Shown piece by piece: positions 46,808 through 62,805 of a stretch of DNA of 64,000 bases. Below the pieces are notes generated by a model that saw nothing but the letters and a program-made list of their open reading frames with translations, had not been told where the DNA came from and ran no database searches. How positions within the stretch are numbered: position 1 is the stretch's first letter; each line of letters starts with the position of its first letter. Source of the stretch: Gemmataceae bacterium (GTDB lineage Bacteria; Planctomycetota; Planctomycetia; Gemmatales; Gemmataceae); NCBI GenBank assembly GCA_003136315.1, contig PLDW01000518.1, forward strand, positions 55,443-119,442, written 5' to 3'. The translations under genes were made by a program, and so were the position numbers.

Positions 46808-46970
46808 ATTGAACCGACGTAGCACGATCGGTCGGCCAGTTCCACAGGATCTGCCTCCGGTCCGACCCGGATTTTCCGTGTCGAACCGGCGGCCCAACTG
46901 CCGCCGTTCTCTGAGTCGGGCTCAACAGTTAGCCAGGAATTGCCCGTGGCAATCCGGCCTAGAGTCTGTT
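46808..46970 (+). repeat. Copy of the repA-parA intergenic region
   Basis: Shares TTGAACCGAsGTAGCACGAyCGG, GACCCGGATTTTCC and GAGTCGGGCTCAACAGTTAGCCrGGAATTGCCCGTGGCAATCCGG with 50799-50960. Confidence 0.85.
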
Positions 46971-49474: not shown

Positions 49475-50776
49475 TCACCGGATGCTGCGAACGAGCCCCT
49501 CCGCCGGGGTATTGGGTTGAGTGTCAGGCGGGAAGACCGCCTCCGTCACCCGGCGGAGAACTTCCCCACTGTGGTCGACGAGGTCGTCCGACCGACTCGG
49601 TTCGGAACCGACGACCGAGAGTGGCCGGGGCTGACTTCGCTCACGGGTGCGGAGGTCGTGCCACCAGTCCGGGGCGGTCCGGCCAGATGAGACCGCCTCC
49701 CGCACGTTGTCGACGAGATAGGCTTGCGGGCTCCGTTTGAAGAACCCCGGGCCATACCGCTCCCGGGCCGCGAGGGTAATGTCGAGCCACTCACGGACGA
49801 CACGGTGCGGGGCGTCCGCCAGCAGCCGGCGGGCGGCGGCCGAATCGAAGCCGAGGGCCAGGAGGCCGTCCCAGAGTGGGGAATCGGCCTCCAGTCGAAT
49901 GGTCGGGGCCGATGGGTTCGAGAACCGCGGGCCGCGTGCGAGGACGATTGAGACAGATCGGTCCGGGCAGCGCTCGAATACTGCGGGGCTCTCGACCACC
50001 CCGATTGCTGCGAGGGTTGCAATCACCCGCTGGAGTTTCTGCCGCTGGTGACGCGGGGCGAGGGTCGGCGAGAACCCGAGGACATCGACCGCCAGGTGGC
50101 CGACATCGAACCTTGGGGTCTGTGCCCGCCTCTGGAAGATCTTGCTCACAAGCAGGAACAGCCGCCGGGCGGCTGGGTCGAGAGACCGATAGGTGTCGAG
50201 GTCGAACCGGAACTGACCGCCGAGAGGCCGGACCAGATCGAAGAACACCGGATCCCAGGCGACCCGCCACGCTCGCGACGAGTCCGGGTCAAGTGGCAGG
50301 CTGTAACTCAGGAATCCGAACCGCACCCGCCGGTGTTCCCCCCGGACCGGGTCGTAGAACGCATCGCTCGCGTAGCTCACCTGGGCCAGACGGTCGAGGG
50401 CGTCAGCAAACTGCTGGTACTGCCGGCCACCCCGGTTGGCGTGCTGATCGATGAGGCCAAGTCGCCGCAGGCAGTGGTGGGGTGTCGCGTGGAACTCCCC
50501 GTCGGGCTCCGGTTCCGCGCACGTCAGGGCGAGGAGCCCCCAGAGGTAGAACTCATCTCCCGGAGAGAGCCCAGCAGGGCAAGTGACCCGCACCGACGCT
50601 TTCCGGTAATGGCGGGACTTGTCCGCGAAGTAATACCCGGTCTCGAAGACCAGGTTCTCCTGGAGTGATTGCCCGGCATCGAGTGGGCAGAGGGCGTGCT
50701 CGACGAGTGTCAACTGGCCGAGTCCTGTTGAGGATCGGCGGGCCATCCCGTTCTGTGCTGTCGGTCGCCGCGGCAT
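49475..50776 (-). CDS. Plasmid replication initiator (RepA-like)
   Basis: ENLVFETGYYFADKSRHYRKASVRV...LSPGDEFYLWGLLALT...FGFLSYSLPLD...WDPVFFDLVRPLGGQFRFDLDTYRSLDPAARRLFLLVSKIF; next to iterons and parAB. Confidence 0.8.
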   Translation of the reverse strand: MPRRPTAQNGMARRSSTGLGQLTLVEHALCPLDAGQSLQENLVFETGYYFADKSRHYRKASVRVTCPAGLSPGDEFYLWGLLALTCAEPEPDGEFHATPHHCLRRLGLIDQHANRGGRQYQQFADALDRLAQVSYASDAFYDPVRGEHRRVRFGFLSYSLPLDPDSSRAWRVAWDPVFFDLVRPLGGQFRFDLDTYRSLDPAARRLFLLVSKIFQRRAQTPRFDVGHLAVDVLGFSPTLAPRHQRQKLQRVIATLAAIGVVESPAVFERCPDRSVSIVLARGPRFSNPSAPTIRLEADSPLWDGLLALGFDSAAARRLLADAPHRVVREWLDITLAARERYGPGFFKRSPQAYLVDNVREAVSSGRTAPDWWHDLRTRERSQPRPLSVVGSEPSRSDDLVDHSGEVLRRVTEAVFPPDTQPNTPAEGLVRSIR

Positions 50777-50798
50777 CCGCCCCCGTGGTTTAAGTGAG

Positions 50799-50960
50799 TT
50801 GAACCGAGGTAGCACGACCGGCCGACTCGGGAAACCGGATTTCGTTCCGGCCCGACCCGGATTTTCCTTGACGACCCTCTGGGCCGCGTGCGACCGTTCC
50901 CCGAGTCGGGCTCAACAGTTAGCCGGGAATTGCCCGTGGCAATCCGGTCCGGAGGGGGAT
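50799..50960 (+). promoter_or_regulatory. repA-parA intergenic control region with a 15 bp palindrome
   Basis: ATTGCCCGTGGCAAT at 50929-50943; second copy of region at 46808-46970. Confidence 0.6.
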
Positions 50961-51777
50961 GTCCACTACAACGGTTTGCTTCATCAACCAGAAAGGCGGG
51001 TGCGGGAAGTCAAGTTCCTGCTATCACCTCGGGGGAGCGCTCGCCGAGCGAGGACTCAACATCCTGCTCGTCGACGCCGACCCCCAGGGATCGCTCAGTC
51101 AGGCGTTCTTCGGCTCGGCCGCCGTCGAATCGCTGGCCGCTCGCGACACCCTCGCGGCCGTCTTCGACCAGAACTCCATCCTCATGCACCCAAGCCGACT
51201 CGCTGTTGCGACAGGGCTCGACCGGTTGAGCATGATCCGGGCAAACCAGTCCCTCGCTCCCCACAACCGGCCCGAGCCGGAGCGTGAGGGGCTGACCCAG
51301 TTCCTGCTCCGGGACGTCCTGGCGGATGTTCCCGGCTACGATCTCATTCTGATCGATTGTCCACCAAACCTCTACCTGGCGAGTTGGAACGCGATGCTCG
51401 CAGCCGACCACGTTGTCATTCCAGTCCCGCCTGAAGACTTCGGAGCGCAGGGGCTGCGGGTCGTCCACCAGGCCATCGAATTGGCCGCCCGGCTCAACCC
51501 ACGGTTGTCCCTCCTGGGCCATCTCGTGACCCGATTTGACGGCCGCCTGGCAGTCCACCGGGCCTACGAGCAGAAGCTCCGGGGGCTTTACCGGGAGACC
51601 GTGTTCGAGGCCGTCGTGCCCGAAGCTTCCGCGTTCAAGGTGGCCCTCGCGTGTCGGACACCTGTCACGGCCTACTCGCCTGCGTCGAAGGCCGCACGAA
51701 GCATGATTCAGGTCGGTGACGAACTGCTGGCCCGGATCTCTCTCGCCGGGAAAGCCAGCATCCGGAGCGTGGGTTAG
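50959..51777 (+). CDS. parA: ParA-family partition ATPase
   Basis: FINQKGGCGKSSSCYHLGGALAERGLNILLVDADPQGSLSQAF and DLILIDCPPNLYLASWNAMLAADHVVIPVPPEDF. Confidence 0.93.
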   Translation: MSTTTVCFINQKGGCGKSSSCYHLGGALAERGLNILLVDADPQGSLSQAFFGSAAVESLAARDTLAAVFDQNSILMHPSRLAVATGLDRLSMIRANQSLAPHNRPEPEREGLTQFLLRDVLADVPGYDLILIDCPPNLYLASWNAMLAADHVVIPVPPEDFGAQGLRVVHQAIELAARLNPRLSLLGHLVTRFDGRLAVHRAYEQKLRGLYRETVFEAVVPEASAFKVALACRTPVTAYSPASKAARSMIQVGDELLARISLAGKASIRSVG

Positions 51778-51779
51778 CG

Positions 51780-52694
51780 ATGGCGACCGTCCGGAACATC
51801 CTCGAAAGGGCCGGTTCAAACCTCGACGAATCGATGGGTGTGCGGGTCGTTGACCTCCGCCCAGCCCTCGCCCCGGTCCCCGATCCGCGAGACCTCGGCC
51901 GCCGGCCGCTCCGAAACGTCGGCCAGGTGGACGTGAACCAGGTGGTCCCTGACCCGGACCAGCCACGGGCCGAGTTCTCCGAGGAGGCCCTCGACCGGCT
52001 CGCCGACAGTATCCGGGAGCAAGGCCAACTCGCACCGATCCGTGTGCGGTGGTCGGGGCCACTTGAGAAGTGGGTGATTGTCGTCGGTGAGCGCCGGTGG
52101 CGGGCAACTCGCCGCGCCGGGTTGGAGACCATCGACTGTGTGTTCGTCGATGGAGATCTCTCCCGTGGCGAACTGCTGTCCCAGCAACTCATCGAGAACT
52201 TGCTCCGGGAAGACCTCCGGGCGATCGAGGAGGCCAAAGCCTTTCAACAACTCATGGACCTGAACGCCTGGACGGGGAAGGAACTTGCTGACGCCCTGCG
52301 GCTCCCGCCGTCGAAGGTCAGTCGGTCGCTCGCATTGCTCGACCTGCCAGAAGATCTCCAGGAGCGGGTCGAGACCGGGGAACTCGGTGCCCGGTCCGCT
52401 TACGAGATTGCGAAACTTCCCCACGACGATTCGCGCCGGGCGCTGGCCGATACCGTTCGTGAGCGGGGCCTCACATCCGAGGATGCCCGCAACGCGGTGC
52501 GGGTGAGGAAGGGCAGGGCCGCGCCCAAGGCCCGGATGAGCCGAGAACGATTCACCGCACCGGGTGGGGTGACAGTGACCGTTTCCGCCAGCCGCCTCCT
52601 TCTGGACGACGAGGTGCTGGCCGCATTGACCCACGCTCTGGGAATTGTCCGGAGTCGTTCCGGGGTCGGCAACGATCCATCAGAATCGCATTAG
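51780..52694 (+). CDS. parB: ParB-family partition protein
   Basis: VNQVVPDPDQPRAEFSEEALDRLADSIREQGQLAPIRVRW...VIVVGERRWRATRRAGLETIDCV...LIENLLREDLRAIEEAKAFQQLMD. Confidence 0.94.
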   Translation: MATVRNILERAGSNLDESMGVRVVDLRPALAPVPDPRDLGRRPLRNVGQVDVNQVVPDPDQPRAEFSEEALDRLADSIREQGQLAPIRVRWSGPLEKWVIVVGERRWRATRRAGLETIDCVFVDGDLSRGELLSQQLIENLLREDLRAIEEAKAFQQLMDLNAWTGKELADALRLPPSKVSRSLALLDLPEDLQERVETGELGARSAYEIAKLPHDDSRRALADTVRERGLTSEDARNAVRVRKGRAAPKARMSRERFTAPGGVTVTVSASRLLLDDEVLAALTHALGIVRSRSGVGNDPSESH

Positions 52695-52803
52695 ATTCCC
52701 GCAATTGGCCCCAAACGGGATTTTCTCTCCGAGTCCAGGCTTTCCCCCCGCCGGACTCAGGTTCGTTGTCATGCGGAGCATCCCCCGCCTCCCCCGAACG
52801 GCG

Positions 52804-53185
52804 AAGCGCCGGCATTTCCGCGTTGCGGAAGATGCCGCTGTGTTGCTGGGAATTGCCCCGCTCCATTCCCGCGTTGCGGGAGATGGAGCCACCCCGCCCC
52901 ACGCTCGCCTCTCGAATTCCCGCTTCGCGGGAGATGTTCGGCTCCCTCCCCCGAGTGGTCGGTCAACCGACTGGGCTCTCCGGTCGCTCCCCTTGCAGGG
53001 AGCCCGCCAGGCTCCCCCACACCCTCCACCACCGCCCCCCTTCGAGCCTGTCATGCTCCCTGCCGCGCTCCGCTCCCTCCGATCCCAGCCGGTTGACCGG
53101 CCGTCTTCGCTTTCTGCATGAGGGGCGGGTCTCCACTGCGTTTTGAAAGACACCGCCCCTCACGCAGAAAGCTTGTGGGCTGGGG
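52804..53185 (+). repeat. 382 bp direct repeat, copy 1
   Basis: Constant offset of 1272 bp to copy 2, only a few mismatches seen. Confidence 0.95.
53110..53171 (+). terminator. Long hairpin, terminator-like, inside the 382 bp repeat
   Basis: CTTTCTGC.TGAGGGGCGG ... CCGCCCCTCA.GCAGAAAG. Confidence 0.5.
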
Positions 53186-53223
53186 CCACATCGCACCGGT
53201 CGGTAACAGGGGGCTGAAAGATT

Positions 53224-53994
53224 ATGGCATCGGCAAATTTGGATTACTTGCGACGCTGTGACTCGTTTACCGTCGGGCCGTTCATGTTCGCCCGGTTCGA
53301 GACCAACCCAAACGAGCACCCTGACACGCGACTGTGCTGGAGCAGTCGGAGGGGGTACTACCTCGTCGGCATCGTCAACGAATGCTTCTGGGAGCAAGAC
53401 CCGGCCGAAGTCTCGAAACCGCTCGTCGTCGTGAGTGATATCTGGGGGAGAGTTCTTCTCATGAACGAATTCGCCTCGCTCGAACAAGCCGAGCGTGCCA
53501 TGTTGCGTTCACGCGAGACGGGCTCATCGTCGGAATCGGATTACCGACCGACCAGGGAGGGTCTTAATACCCGGAGGACTGCGACACAGGACCACCGAGA
53601 CGAGAAGATGGAGCGAGGCGGAGGTAGTGAGGACGCACGGGAATTACTGACCCGTTACAAAGGGAAGGTCTACCGCGTGGTGTTCGGGCCGCCGTGCTTC
53701 GTCGAACAACGCAACGGGGCGTTGTTGGGCACCGGGATGCCGAGTATCGAATTGGCCGACCCCGAAACCGGTGTGCCGCTCCACGGCCTGACCTTCGACA
53801 TTCCCGAGGCACCGCTACGGCCGGGTCAGGTGCTCGTTGGGGGCCGGGAAGAAGGCCTCCAGGCCCTCACAGAAGCGGGGGTCGTCCGCTTCACAGGGGC
53901 CTATTACCGCTCCAAGCGGTTCTTGGCGACGTTCGCAGTGTGTGACCTCCTCGTCGGCCCCTTCCGCCGACGCACCCCGACGGCGCTCCGCTGA
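53224..53994 (+). CDS. Hypothetical protein
   Basis: Coding-like ORF bracketed by the 382 bp repeats. Confidence 0.6.
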   Translation: MASANLDYLRRCDSFTVGPFMFARFETNPNEHPDTRLCWSSRRGYYLVGIVNECFWEQDPAEVSKPLVVVSDIWGRVLLMNEFASLEQAERAMLRSRETGSSSESDYRPTREGLNTRRTATQDHRDEKMERGGGSEDARELLTRYKGKVYRVVFGPPCFVEQRNGALLGTGMPSIELADPETGVPLHGLTFDIPEAPLRPGQVLVGGREEGLQALTEAGVVRFTGAYYRSKRFLATFAVCDLLVGPFRRRTPTALR

Positions 53995-54075
53995 CCGTCA
54001 TCGCTTGCCTCGCCCGGGTAGTTCGGCCACCCTCCTCGCCCGATTCCGCCGCTGAGGTCGGGGGTTTTTGCTCCA

Positions 54076-54457
54076 AAGCGCCGGCATTTCCGCGTTGCGG
54101 AAGATGCCGCTGTGTTGCTGGGAATTGCCCCGCTCCATTCCCGCGTTGCGGGAGATGGAGCCACCCCGCCCCACGCTCGCCTCTCGAATTCCCGCTTCGC
54201 GGGAGATGTTCGGCTCCCTCCCCCGAGTGGTCGGTCAACCGACTGGGCTCTCCGGTCGCTCCCCTTGCAGGGAGCCCGCCAGGCTCCCCCACACCCTCCA
54301 CCACCGCCCCCCTTCGAGCCTGTCATGCTCCCTGCCGCGCTCCGCTCCCTCCGATCCCAGCCGGTTGACCGGCCGTCTGCGCTTTCTGCATGAGGGGCGG
54401 GTCTCCACTGCGTTTCGAAAGACCCCGCCCCTCACGCAGAAAGCTTGTGGGGTGGGG
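54076..54457 (+). repeat. 382 bp direct repeat, copy 2
   Basis: See copy 1. Confidence 0.95.
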
Positions 54458-54516
54458 GTCTGTGGATGAACGCAATGCTCCGGGAACACCCCGGGGCACA
54501 ACCTATCGGAGGACAC

Positions 54517-55104
54517 ATGGAGACGAACGCAACACCGACCTACTACGGTTGCGCGAACTATGAGACCTGGGCCGTGAACCTGTGGCTATCGAACGATGCC
54601 ACGAGCTATTCGCACTGGACTGAGCGAACACGCGAGATTCTGGCCGAATCCGGCATAATCGAAGACAATCGCTCCGCAGTCGGGCAGCTTGCCGACGCAC
54701 TCCGCGAAGCCATCAATGACGAATACCACACGGAGGGCGCGGGCCTGATATCGGACCTGCTGACCGCGGCTCTGAGCAAGGTCGATTGGCACGAAATCGC
54801 ACAGTCGTTTATCGACGACGTCTCACTAACACCCACCGGGAAGGTTGTTCCGCTGGGCCTGGTGGTTGCCACCCCTGGAGTGTTGGCAGAACTGACGGAG
54901 GAAGACCGACTCGGGGCATTGGCACGGCATGCCCGCGGGGACTGGGGGGACGTGGACGCAGAGGATTGGGCGGAGAACGAATTGTCCCTCAACGAGGGCT
55001 TTCGACTCCTCTCGGCTTACCACTCCGCAGGTGGTGTCAAATTCTGGATTATCACGGAGGCCGACCGCTCCATCACGACCATGCTGCTCCCGATTGAATA
55101 CTGA
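54517..55104 (+). CDS. Hypothetical, phage/plasmid-type NYETW protein
   Basis: METNATPTYYGCANYETWAVNLWLSNDATSYSHWTERTREIL; conserved-looking NYETW..NLWLSND motif. Confidence 0.7.
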   Translation: METNATPTYYGCANYETWAVNLWLSNDATSYSHWTERTREILAESGIIEDNRSAVGQLADALREAINDEYHTEGAGLISDLLTAALSKVDWHEIAQSFIDDVSLTPTGKVVPLGLVVATPGVLAELTEEDRLGALARHARGDWGDVDAEDWAENELSLNEGFRLLSAYHSAGGVKFWIITEADRSITTMLLPIEY

Positions 55105-55173: not shown

Positions 55174-56188
55174 ATGAAACGACTGGATTGCAACTGTCAC
55201 GCACTTCTCAAAAGCCACAGCCACCCACTCAACCCGCCGACGGCCGCTCACTTCCCGCATGAGGAGACCGTCTCTCGGTTCGCGAAGCGTGTCCGCTCTC
55301 ACCCGGCTGGGGAGTTCACACTTGGCCATAACCACCTCAACCCGAGCGAGCGGCCGGACTCTGTGCTGAAATCGCATTATCGGCAGTATTCGGCGGTTCA
55401 AGGCGACCACGACATTCTCTCTGTTGCGGTCGTGCCGGTGACCGCTGAGGAACTTGACAGCTGGCCCGGCCAAGACGCGACCGGTGGGAGTGACCACCTG
55501 GTCGCCCTCGCGGACGCCGCGGGCAAGCTCCTGCTGTTCGATTGCTACACGCAGGCCGGGGCGGAGCAGGTGATGGAGAAGGCCGCACGCGCGACGACCG
55601 AATGGACCACTGCACAGGGTCGAAATCCGCTCTCGCCCGAGTCCGGAGAATTCATCGCTGGCTACCCGCTCACCAAGGAGGAACTCCGCCTGCTCGCCAT
55701 CCACTGGGCAACACTTCATATCGACAATGCGGCATGGTGCGTTCTCGCCGCGACGGTCGGGACCACTGAACTCGGGGTCGCGGATTACACAGGAACCCGC
55801 TTGGATCTTATCGCCGGCATCCTCGGGGATGAGGCGATCGAGGCCGCTTACTTCGCGGCTGAGGAGCGTATCCGAGAAAGGCTAGTACTACAGCGCAGCG
55901 GCCATGAACCCCTTCCGCAAACGCCATGAAAACGGCCTAGGAAACCGCAATTCTGAAGGATATCAGACCGACTCGGCGAGTGATGTCTAGTACTGCTTCC
56001 TAGCTGGCATCGACGCAACTTCTTATCTTGCTAGTGGTTAGTGACAAGCGTTGAAGGCTGCGTGCGGCTGCGCTGTAGTACTAGGCGACGAACTGTGGAC
56101 AGCATTCCGGGAGCGAAAACCGGTCCTACGCGAGCGGATGGATGCCGACCAAATGGCGACCACAGAGTCTGAGACGGAAGGGTCTTGA
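55174..56188 (+). pseudogene. Hypothetical gene interrupted by a MITE
   Basis: Exact removal of 55885-56083 gives an 816 nt frame with junction AGG CTA GGC GAC GAA CTG (ERIRERL/GDELWTAFRERKPVLRERMDADQM...). Confidence 0.8.
55883..56083. mobile_element. MITE with perfect terminal inverted repeats and TA duplication
   Basis: ctagtactacagcgcagc (55882-55899) and gctgcgctgtagtactag (56067-56084); TA at both ends. Confidence 0.88.
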
Positions 56189-56201
56189 GTGACCGCCTGA
56201 G

Positions 56202-57068
56202 ATGCAGGTGGTGGACGCGGCGGCCGGGGCCATTCCGGCCGTCGTTGAGACAAACGACGGTATTCCCTATTCCTTGATGAGGCTTATGCACTTTCTGGTG
56301 ACCGTTTTTGGCGAAGATGTGGACCGGCAACTTGCACCCTACCAGGAGAACAACTTCGGAACCTGTCCCGAGACCTATCTGGAGTTTTACGACGTGGAGG
56401 AGGAATTCCGGGAAGAATTCCGAAGTGGACGGTTCGGCACGACCGGGCTTGGGTGGTTCCACCCGATTCGTCTCCTGAAACTCGTCCGCAGCACTTTCAT
56501 GGCGTTCGACAGCGACATGGCCGAGGCACACTCCGGTCTGCGGGACGAGCGGACCGGGCGTTACGGCGACTGGTGGAACCCGAATTCGGAATATGACTTT
56601 TATGAAGTCGGTGGACGGTGGGCCAGCCACCTGATTCTCCGTGGCGAGCGAATCGGGCAACTCTGGACACCCGCGGCTCGCACGCCCCAAGCCGGTCCCT
56701 GTCGGGCCGACCAGGCGAGAAAGGGAGACATCGACTTTCGGGCGATGGGGTGGGAATGCCACAACCGGTTTCTCGACGCCTGGGATGAGTTGGAGCGGAC
56801 GGGGCGGACGAGCGACCGTTGGGCCAAGTGGAATCGCCGCATCCCGGAGAGCATCACGACCCGAGAGCAATTGGCGGCTTACGCCCTCAAACGGTACCGA
56901 GTCAGCGCTCCGGACGCGGTTGTGTTCGAGGGTGAGTGGACTGGCCCGTGGTGGGACAAGGACGACCTGACGGAAGAAGCGGCGGACCGGTGGGACGCCT
57001 GGTATGCCGCCCTCCTGGCGTCACTCTCCGATGAGACGCTTGTGACCGTTGTCGATTGCCACACCTGA
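56202..57068 (+). CDS. Hypothetical protein
   Basis: Coding-like ORF, e.g. EYDFYEVGGRWASHLILRGE...FLDAWDELERTGRTSDRWAKW. Confidence 0.65.
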   Translation: MQVVDAAAGAIPAVVETNDGIPYSLMRLMHFLVTVFGEDVDRQLAPYQENNFGTCPETYLEFYDVEEEFREEFRSGRFGTTGLGWFHPIRLLKLVRSTFMAFDSDMAEAHSGLRDERTGRYGDWWNPNSEYDFYEVGGRWASHLILRGERIGQLWTPAARTPQAGPCRADQARKGDIDFRAMGWECHNRFLDAWDELERTGRTSDRWAKWNRRIPESITTREQLAAYALKRYRVSAPDAVVFEGEWTGPWWDKDDLTEEAADRWDAWYAALLASLSDETLVTVVDCHT

Positions 57069-57180
57069 AGCCTTGGGACAATCTGCCGTGTGCCGCAGGA
57101 GAGTGCCGGCACACGGCACGCTGTCGGAGGCGCGTGGCAATTCCCGTCACGGTTCTGGGTGAATCGGGGGAAGCGGTCTC

Positions 57181-57611
57181 GGCCGGGATTTCCGCAGGGC
57201 AGTGCCCCACGGAGAATCCCGGCCTCGTGCCCCACCCGGCATTCCCCGGTGCTTTGCACCAGGGAGATGCCACCGCGGAATTCCCGACCGCGTTGCGGTC
57301 AGGACATTCCGCCCACCACTCCGGTTTTTTCCCGCCGCCCTGGCGGGCGGCTCGGGCCGTGTCCTGAACGGACACCGGCCATTGAGATGGGCCAGGACGG
57401 GCGATGCTGGGGCGCGGAGGATGCAGCCCTTCGGGCCTCGGACCGCAGGGAGCAGTCGCGGATCGTGGCCCCGCGGAACGCTTCGCCCCAGGCCGACCGC
57501 ACTTGCGGTCTGTTGGCTCATTCCCGATCGGCGGGATCATCGCAAGACCGCGTTGAAGGCCCATCTGGGTGCTCTCTCTCTCACGATCCCGCCGGTTGGC
57601 GGGATCGTCTG
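57181..57611. other. Hairpin-rich intergenic region
   Basis: GGCCGGGATT...AATCCCGGCC, GGCATTCCCCGGTGC ttt GCACCAGGGAGATGCC, ACGATCCCGCC ggtt GGCGGGATCGT. Confidence 0.6.
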
Positions 57612-57823
57612 GTCCCCAGGGACGGAGCGAATTGTTACCGTGCGGCTGCCGGGGTACATTCAATTGGATTCAGAACGTCTGCCACCATCGTTCTATGGAG
57701 AGCACGTGGTTCGCATGTTTCGCGTGAACGGCGGCGGACGAGTCGTTGCGAACGGATGCCGGGTGTGTCAAGAAGGACAGGGGGAATCGGAGGCCGATCC
57801 GATTCCACCTGCCTGGGGGCCTG

Positions 57824-60090: not shown

Positions 60091-62805
60091 TCACAGGGAG
60101 TCGTTCCGGAATCGCTCGTCCCAGTCGGTCGCCGGTCTGCCAGGCAATACCTGCGGAACCCGTTCCGGCTGGGTTCGTCTGACCGGGTCAGGCCCCGGTG
60201 CTGGCTCGTCGGGAAGGATCGGCCACGAGGCTTTCTCACGCTTCTCGTGGGTCTCTTTGTCGACCGGGAAGAGCGACCGGACGATCGTCGTCTTGGCCCC
60301 GAACTGAGTATAGCCACTGCCAAATGTGAAGCGAATCAAACTCGCCTGCGGGTCCGCGCTTGCGGCCATGATGGTGTTCCGGTCCAGTGCTGGACCGGGC
60401 GACTCGCTCAGTTGGAGAAACCCCTCGACTGCTCGTGATGGATCAATCTCCACGTCCCTGCGGGCCACGATGTCCTGGGTCCACGTCAACGAATGGTAGG
60501 TTTGCACCCCGGACATCTCCTCGATCCGCTTGACCATCCTCAGGTCCGACACCCGCAAGATGTGCTTCACGGCGGTGCAGGAGTCGATCGTGTCCCCCAG
60601 ATCGGTGCCCTGCCGGAGCAACTGCCCGCCCGTTTGGTGGATCGGCACCAGGGTCACCCCGAGCCCACGAATCTGTTCAAACACCAGTTTGATACCGTCG
60701 GCGATGATCTGCTGGAACTCGTCAATGAACAGGTAAACCCGGTTGTCCCGACTCGGACGGTTGGCGGCAGCCGAGAACAGTGACCAGAGGAACAGGCGAG
60801 CGATCGTCGCCGCCGCAAGCGGCTCCTGGGCGGATTTCAGGTTCAGGTAGACGACCTGTTTGGTGTGCAGGATGTCGGCCACCTCAATCCGCCGGGGCGA
60901 ACCCTCGGGCCGCACCTCGTTGAGCGGCTTCACCGCGGCCAGGCGATTGACGAGCGCTGTCAGGTGACCCGCGTCGCGGAGATCCTTCGGGGTCATGAAG
61001 TCCAGCCCCTGGGGGCTATTTAACATCGCATTGAGTTCCGTGAAAGACGTCACCTCCACCGTCCGGAGAATCGACTTCATCACCTTCTCGTTAATCGCCG
61101 TGAAATAGGCCCGACCGTAGTCCATGCCGTAGTCGAGTGAGAGCCCCTGAATCAGGGTCTCCGCCCGCTGGTCGGTCGTTACGTCCCGGTGGTAGGACTG
61201 CACGAACGGGTTGAACGTGAAACTCGACTGTCCCCGTTCCGAGGTGAACCACCGGAACGGCAGCCTCGCCTTCGCCGCCTCGATCCGGCAAGACTCGAAG
61301 AGGGCCATGTCCCCCTTGAGGTCGAGGATCACGACCGAACAGTCGTCGCGGGCAATCAACTGGGTCGCAAGCGGGCCGGCGACGAGTGACGACTTCATCG
61401 AGCCGGTGTCCCCCGTCAGGTGATAGTGCTGGTCGAGGATCGCCTTGTGCAGCAGCACCGGGTAGTCGCCGAACAGGCTGAACCCGACCAGCACGTGTTG
61501 CTTTTCGAGTCGGTGCTGGGTGCTGAGCAGCCGGCAGACATAAACATCCCACTCGCTGTCGGGTGTCTGGGCCTGACCGCCTGGGGCTTCGAGCGCCAGG
61601 TAGTAGCCGGTGAGCAGTTCACCCACGGCCACCCAGACCACCGCCACGATCAAGAACACCATCCCCAACGGCATCACCACCAGGGCCGTGAAGATTCGTG
61701 TGGGGATCGAGACCCACCGCTCCTGCCTCATTCGCTCGATATCCTCCTGGGTGACGGTCCGACTCCGCACCAACTCCGCCGTTTGTCGTCGTGACTCCTC
61801 GGGCGAGAGTGTGGCCAGGTACTGGCGTTCATGGGGAAGCAGTCCTCCCTGAGCGAGTTGGGCCGTCACGGGTGGTGGCCAGACGGGCGGGATGACGACG
61901 GCCGTTGCGAGGCCGGCGGTGAGCAGCAGGACGATCACAAACCGCTTCCGCTGGTCCACGTCGACAAGCCGACGGGCGGGGAACCGGAACACCCCGGCGG
62001 CCGGGGTGCGGTGCCGGTTGTAGGTGACGAACACGACGAAGAGTTCCCACAGCACGCGGGCTGTCAGACGGAGTGAGAACCCCTCATCCTTGCCGAACAG
62101 TCTCCGCAGGAGCACGATGAGGACGAGAAAGAGCGTGAAGCCAACTGCAGCGACCGCCGGAGTGAGAGGGTTGCTGCCGTCGAAACCGAGTCGATCGAAG
62201 ACGAGGATCCCGAATCCATACGCAGCGAGCAGGAAGAGCGGAGCCAGCACCGTGGCCCGCGTGGCAGGTAACGCTTCGGCCACCACCCACCGGCCCGGGT
62301 GTGGGAAATAGCCCAGCCACTTCCGGCCGATGTCGCTATGCACCTTCGGATTGACCGCCATCCACCCCACGACCTGGCGGGCGGAGATGAGGGCCAGTCC
62401 ACCGATGGCGAGGACCGCACATGGGAAAGCGATCAGATAGCCGGCGAGGTGAGGTGGGAGAGTGGTATGGAGTGCCAGGCCCACAACCACCACAGCGAAG
62501 AGCCAGAGACGGAACTCTCTCAGTCGACCGGGCGTCTCCGGATCGGACCGGGTGACATCAGGGACCAACCACCAGGTCCGCCAGAAGAGGGCGATGATCG
62601 CATAGCCGAGTGTGTTGAGACCAAAGAATCTGAGGAGGAGGGCGACAACCACGGCCCAGATGACTGCGACTCGCAAAGTGTGGAGAGTGAATCGGAGTTC
62701 GGTGTCGACGTCCGGGCGGGTGCGATAGTCGAGTTCGGTCCCCTCGGTCGGGGGTAAGGACGCGGCGTCGAGCGTGTCGTTCGTCTCTGACGTCGGGATG
62801 CGCAT
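60091..62805 (-). CDS. Type IV coupling protein-like ATPase (TraD/TraG/VirD4-like)
   Basis: HYHLTGDTGSMKSSLVAGPLATQLI (Walker A position), VVILDLKGDMALFESCR, VYLFIDEFQQIIADGI, VTLVPIHQTGGQLLRQG; multiple N-terminal TM segments. Confidence 0.85.
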   Translation of the reverse strand: MRIPTSETNDTLDAASLPPTEGTELDYRTRPDVDTELRFTLHTLRVAVIWAVVVALLLRFFGLNTLGYAIIALFWRTWWLVPDVTRSDPETPGRLREFRLWLFAVVVVGLALHTTLPPHLAGYLIAFPCAVLAIGGLALISARQVVGWMAVNPKVHSDIGRKWLGYFPHPGRWVVAEALPATRATVLAPLFLLAAYGFGILVFDRLGFDGSNPLTPAVAAVGFTLFLVLIVLLRRLFGKDEGFSLRLTARVLWELFVVFVTYNRHRTPAAGVFRFPARRLVDVDQRKRFVIVLLLTAGLATAVVIPPVWPPPVTAQLAQGGLLPHERQYLATLSPEESRRQTAELVRSRTVTQEDIERMRQERWVSIPTRIFTALVVMPLGMVFLIVAVVWVAVGELLTGYYLALEAPGGQAQTPDSEWDVYVCRLLSTQHRLEKQHVLVGFSLFGDYPVLLHKAILDQHYHLTGDTGSMKSSLVAGPLATQLIARDDCSVVILDLKGDMALFESCRIEAAKARLPFRWFTSERGQSSFTFNPFVQSYHRDVTTDQRAETLIQGLSLDYGMDYGRAYFTAINEKVMKSILRTVEVTSFTELNAMLNSPQGLDFMTPKDLRDAGHLTALVNRLAAVKPLNEVRPEGSPRRIEVADILHTKQVVYLNLKSAQEPLAAATIARLFLWSLFSAAANRPSRDNRVYLFIDEFQQIIADGIKLVFEQIRGLGVTLVPIHQTGGQLLRQGTDLGDTIDSCTAVKHILRVSDLRMVKRIEEMSGVQTYHSLTWTQDIVARRDVEIDPSRAVEGFLQLSESPGPALDRNTIMAASADPQASLIRFTFGSGYTQFGAKTTIVRSLFPVDKETHEKREKASWPILPDEPAPGPDPVRRTQPERVPQVLPGRPATDWDERFRNDSL

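Follow-up and report, generated by a model that had tools for sequence, protein, structure and literature searches.

An undescribed family of strongly folded elements precedes accessory plasmid genes in Planctomycetota and perhaps activates them upon plasmid entry into a recipient cell

What is a strongly structured, non-coding unit for, when it occurs twice in almost identical form on a plasmid-like contig and each copy stands just before a gene? The window, a 64-kb stretch of a contig from a Gemmataceae bacterium, raises this question with two 382-bp copies, at 52804-53185 and 54076-54457, that bracket a single gene downstream of parAB. The plasmid status is itself inferred, since the 119-kb contig is not closed and carries chromosome-like genes.

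Anatomy of the repeated unit

The two copies differ at four of their 382 positions (53107 T/G, 53144 T/C, 53152 A/C, and 53180 C/G, in copy 1 numbering) and at no others. No repeat in the window is longer than the 303-bp exact block inside the pair, the runner-up reaching 52 bp. Sequence identity ends at both borders of the unit, and the spacers to the following start codons, of 38 nt (copy 1) and 59 nt (copy 2), differ in sequence. A sequence-only reading of this DNA had given the coordinates, the 1272 bp offset, and examples of the substitutions, all of which are exact. Its description of the unit as non-coding and structured is borne out, as RNA folding far exceeds that of shuffles (z -7.8 on the plus strand, z -6.6 on the minus strand) and relatives are conserved. 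A protein-coding reading was rejected, the overlapping ORFs being devoid of codon bias. The parts of the unit are the following:

52804-53185, minus strand: structured element copy 1; the strand tests assign folding to this strand, complementary to the downstream gene
54076-54457, minus strand: structured element copy 2, 378/382 identical to copy 1
~52808-52837, 52860-52889, 52913-52940: three small 5' hairpins of copy 1, from fold and sequence; likewise in copy 2 at +1272
52957-52978 / 53081-53102: arms of the long stem P-A, copy 1, from the fold
54229-54250 / 54353-54374: arms of P-A, copy 2
52995-53014 / 53044-53063: arms of the conserved core stem P-B (CGCCAG..CTGTCA), copy 1
54267-54286 / 54316-54335: arms of P-B, copy 2
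53109-53128 / 53153-53172: arms of the terminal hairpin, copy 1, with an A.C mismatch and without a T-tract
54381-54401 / 54424-54444: arms of the terminal hairpin, copy 2

The third small hairpin (52913-52940 and +1272; also in loci L016 and L085) exhibits on the minus strand a GCGAAGC tip, the motif of an unusually stable DNA mini-hairpin; the ten loci returned by a collection-wide search with the hairpin-tip pattern are unrelated and due to chance. The terminal hairpin had been taken for terminator-like. No T-run follows it on either strand and the terminator scan does not list it, so it is not an intrinsic terminator. An integron attC site was also considered and rejected: the RYYYAAC...GTTRRRY cores are not present, the ends reading GTTTT...AAAAC in most homologues, in the inverse order and with no purine triplet.

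Relatives of the element and the genes they precede

Searching the 11.6-Mb draft genome of the organism returned the 382-bp unit at two sites only, while homologues occur elsewhere. A search of ~200 related genomes provided two divergent copies on a contig from another family (G192:C264, L016), each followed by a 97-aa gene, to which the C-terminal part of the window gene at 54517 is homologous, in a locus downstream of a parB end. An nhmmer search with these copies reported more members in loci of the 97-aa gene family (L019, L060, and L031). The covariance model R1, built from six sequences and run on 397 genomes of the class, identified independent members in G178 (9e-18), G109 (9e-18), G388 (5e-13), a second G263 locus, and G038, as well as two copies in G286 (9e-7 and 2e-5); G361 and G005 are further covariance-model members. 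The G014 match is weak with R1 and clear with a second model, R2, but R2 was built including G014. Covariance modelling, a check proposed by the sequence-only reading, thus yields good matches in 12 genomes of the class besides the window's own, with divergent relatives 58-74% identical, and because of these homologues the unit is not only a local tandem duplication. Two matches were set aside, one to the covariance model in chromosomal-looking gene surroundings (G295) and a 44-nt BLAST match without a covariance-model match (G092).

Rfam reports no family above its gathering threshold and, at lax thresholds (E up to 5), only chance microRNA-like matches. Neither the window unit nor the G170 homologue had a BLAST match in PLSDB, and none of the 87 matches from a core-pattern scan of IMG/VR is convincing by covariance model. 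The family is real and conserved, and none of the libraries searched (Rfam, IMG/VR, PLSDB) describes it.

Its members share small 5' hairpins (in several members), P-A, a CTCTGG-type segment, P-B, a CGCTCCCGCCG-type segment, and a terminal hairpin of 20-25 bp, which has a GTTTT..AAAAC base in most members and often an A.C mismatch. P-B contains a near-invariant CGCCAG..CTGTCA, and in the family alignment 7 of its 13 pairs are altered on both sides. Its covariation score of 0.296 compares with 0.117 in shuffles (0/500); when the partner strand is slid, pairing falls from 91% to 43% or less. Three genomes, the window's, G192, and G286, hold paired elements with each copy before a gene. The copies within these genomes (98-99, 88, and 89% identical, respectively) are far more alike than copies from different genomes, which indicates that duplication or gene conversion took place separately in at least three lineages. 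The term mobile non-coding element, used in the sequence-only reading, does not suit this distribution, as one or two copies were detected per genome, always heading accessory genes and never scattered.

The gene surroundings in the window are as follows:

49475-50815, minus strand: 446-aa ORF, putative replication initiator by position alone, no family match
50959-51777, plus strand: parA, with parB directly upstream of copy 1
51780-52694, plus strand: parB, directly upstream of copy 1
53224-53994, plus strand: bracketed gene, 256 aa, no Pfam, NCBIfam, or PHROGs match
54517-55104, plus strand: gene after copy 2, 195 aa, with a DUF7249/phrog_871-like N-terminal part and a C-terminal 'KFWIITEADRS' domain
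55174-57068, plus strand: further same-orientation genes, 251 aa (55174-55929) and 288 aa, phrog_10079 (56202-57068)
60091-62805, minus strand: type IV coupling protein (TrwB_AAD_bind, TraG-D_C)

The order is hence parA-parB, element 1, the 256-aa gene, element 2, the DUF7249-like gene and others, and the coupling protein on the opposite strand, and G109 has the same. No TrwC-family relaxase was found on the window's contig, and an assignment of PF13814 (Replic_Relax) to a small gene near the coupling protein was dropped for want of a Pfam match. Across the family, the elements stand at the head of accessory genes on plasmids or integrative elements, with parAB, MobF, or coupling-protein genes nearby, other members adjoining tyrosine integrase/excisionase-like genes (read by eye) or a MobF relaxase. 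Every strong homologue lies ~10-110 nt upstream of an accessory gene, in the same orientation. The products of the headed genes comprise DUF7249, DUF6573, a zinc-ribbon-like protein, and small uncharacterised proteins, and N6_N4 methyltransferases occur in the element-headed groups of G263, G170, G038, and G014 (three of the four below the Pfam cut-off). One such group (L189 5600-8410, L190 8722-12200) lies by an N6_N4 methyltransferase and an AbiEi/AbiEii-like pair (by eye) and is divergent from a MobF relaxase gene.

The C-terminal domain 'KFWIITEADRS..LLPEEY' (window 54517-55104; L016 479-769 and 1805-2095) is found in 125 of the 397 genomes and on 168 PLSDB plasmids from several phyla, some copies carrying the annotation 'type I restriction endonuclease subunit M'; the named plasmids that harbor related genes are from Singulisphaera and Paludisphaera. 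The KFWIITE genes of pSINAC03 and PALBO2 were rejected as element carriers, their upstream hairpins being different from the window element. These other long hairpins (L099 2695-2800 and L100 2690-2800, respectively), before KFWIITE clusters near mobF, are possibly analogous. Elsewhere on the window's contig, two near-identical loci (G000:C1 7239-8428 and 50377-51444; L047 and L048) contain the same KFWIITE-type gene followed by a 145-aa gene, and their conserved upstream region may hold another structured element. Window positions 46809-46960 and 50799-50950 also resemble each other, with matching translations, one of them just upstream of parA, and possibly represent a repeated origin or regulatory region.

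The folding strand and what it may do

Two kinds of evidence discriminate between the strands. On the gene-sense strand, P-A and the terminal stems together contain 19 A.C versus 5 G.T mismatches (p 0.003, an indicative value since the stems were curated by hand, on alignments that are strand-neutral, and homologous sequences lack independence). P-B contains 17 A.C versus 2 G.T, and its C.A column reads C.A in 14 of 15 sequences and T-A in one. Gene-sense A.C mismatches read as G.T/G.U wobbles on the complementary strand. Independently of these counts, DNA folding energy beyond composition is better for the antisense strand in 9 of 10 elements, with a mean z of -1.66 (against 60 random windows with sd 1.6, p ~0.001, to be read with the same caution). 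The template strand of Frpo2 from plasmid F is known to fold, and in the same test this control gave z -2.5 with the same bias. The folded, functional strand therefore appears to be the one complementary (antisense, template) to the downstream genes. A cruciform or a double-stranded DNA binding site is disfavored, because neither would yield a strand bias. The element is probably regulatory. The sequence-only reading had suggested a repeated regulatory RNA, of which the regulatory part probably stands, while the mismatch and energy tests point away from a gene-sense RNA and to the complementary strand.

We tentatively favor, at close to even chances, the reading of the repeats as two copies of a self-contained promoter or priming element, active on the single-stranded plasmid in an Frpo/ssi-like manner and part of an establishment region. 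This RNA-start role on ssDNA is proposed because the unit is self-contained, repeated before gene clusters, folded on the template strand, and associated with establishment-type cargo. Upon conjugal entry, or during rolling-circle replication, the plasmid would become single-stranded, and the template strand of the downstream genes would fold its small hairpins, P-A/P-B, and long terminal hairpin into a multi-arm structure. RNA polymerase or another initiation factor might recognize this folded strand and initiate RNA synthesis in the direction of the gene, which begins 38-59 nt further on. Establishment genes, of the anti-defence type, would in this way be expressed before the second strand is made, and the RNA start may also prime second-strand synthesis. 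The pair, the family, the covarying P-B, the strand bias, the placement and orientation before genes, and the gene content are observed, whereas folding as ssDNA instead of RNA, polymerase recruitment, and early expression are inferred.

Since the strand tests fit ssDNA and antisense RNA alike, the main rival is a structured non-coding RNA from the antisense strand, starting near the gene start and regulating the neighbouring gene or plasmid copy number or maintenance. The mismatches, the folding energy, and the covariation of P-B suit it equally, as do unpaired segments that are purine-rich on the antisense strand. However, the duplicated unit stops directly behind the terminal hairpin, 38-59 nt short of the gene, and the promoter of such an RNA would therefore sit outside the unit, where the copies differ; no terminator lies downstream on the antisense strand, and the constant placement before gene starts is left unexplained. 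We consider this explanation unlikely. Somewhat less likely still is a single-strand initiation or transfer site (ssi/sso/oriT-like) that primes the complementary strand or binds a relaxase or Rep without a promoter role. It accounts for strand-specific structure on elements with rep/par, integrase, coupling-protein, or MobF genes, but each repeated copy precedes a different gene and is always gene-oriented, which argues for gene expression rather than a mere ssi or transfer site.

A gene-sense 5' leader RNA controlling the downstream gene, riboswitch-like or protein-binding, would agree with the strong folding and the placement directly before genes, yet it appears improbable because the gene-sense strand has conserved A.C and C.A mismatches, C-rich loops, and weaker folding beyond composition, and because no Rfam match emerges even at lax E-values. 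Moreover, a putative T-tailed hairpin (~54038-54070, by eye) ends the bracketed gene and directly precedes copy 2, leaving little room for a promoter upstream of it. Lastly, a functionless local tandem duplication or mobile repeat (e.g., REP/MITE-like) would suit near-identical copies present only twice in their own genome but is very improbable, as the homologues span several families with covariation, position and orientation are fixed, and neither terminal repeats nor a target duplication were noticed.

Comparison with plasmid leading regions

The proposed ssDNA promoter has its closest counterparts in Frpo1/Frpo2 (ssiD) of plasmid F and ssi2/ssi3 of ColIb-P9, folded non-coding elements of ~0.3-0.5 kb that likewise form near-identical intra-plasmid copies, each just before establishment or anti-defence genes. 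As in the window family, the antisense (template) strand of the F Frpo folds better. By BLAST, the F pair is 90% identical over ~520 nt, 5.4 kb apart; the reported value is 92%, with different leading genes, and folding of Frpo rebuilds canonical -35/-10 boxes (PMC9849209). In contrast, the window family belongs to another phylum, has no significant sequence or covariance-model similarity to Frpo, and displays no such boxes. R1 and R2 gave only chance-level scores on the F leading region, the one ssi region covered by the sequence comparison. A linear scan of 52600-54700 found no sigma-70-like -35/-10 hexamer pair, although the sigma-70 consensus may not be that of Planctomycetota, and no boxes were seen in the folded form upon inspection by eye.

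On the F map, sopAB is followed by methylase, antirestriction, ssb, and psiB genes, and then by oriT and tra; the leading genes lie nearly all on one strand and are transcribed towards oriT. The window order, parAB, elements with their genes, and coupling protein, resembles this succession of sopAB, leading region, oriT, and tra, and gene order makes 57069-57823 a candidate oriT region of the window. In G038 and G014, the element genes diverge from the MobF gene, and an oriT located between the two would place them on the wrong strand. The element-headed genes (methyltransferases, DUF6573, and DUF7249) resemble leading-region cargo, which includes orphan methyltransferases and anti-defence genes (PMC11541004, PMC7736820). 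Given the lack of a sequence or covariance-model match, the absence of canonical boxes, and the divergent MobF in two genomes, we propose that the element works like an Frpo and do not claim that it is one.

Single-strand origins (sso/ssi) are strand-specific hairpin elements used on ssDNA. Compared by description, the window family is alike in its hairpins but differs in being repeated before genes and gene-oriented. STAXI and similar plasmid and phage motifs also exhibit structure near antirestriction, ssb, and integrase genes, and an ssDNA function has been considered for them (Weinberg 2010, PMC2864571). The window element shares the conserved structure beside such genes and the possible ssDNA role, whereas STAXI consists of tandem pseudoknots with UUCG loops, and its Rfam models do not match.

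It is conceivable, if somewhat more doubtful than the Frpo/ssi-like reading itself, that these elements constitute a new class of strand-specific ssDNA promoters in Planctomycetota mobile elements, unrelated to Frpo in sequence, without canonical boxes, and with a copy per establishment cluster. To our knowledge, single-stranded promoters have been described chiefly in enterobacterial plasmids. If the proposal is true, it would suggest that early expression from entering ssDNA evolved more than once, and the elements would allow promoter recognition in the absence of canonical boxes to be put to the test. They would also help to locate establishment regions, and anti-defence genes as yet uncharacterised, in the poorly studied Planctomycetota.
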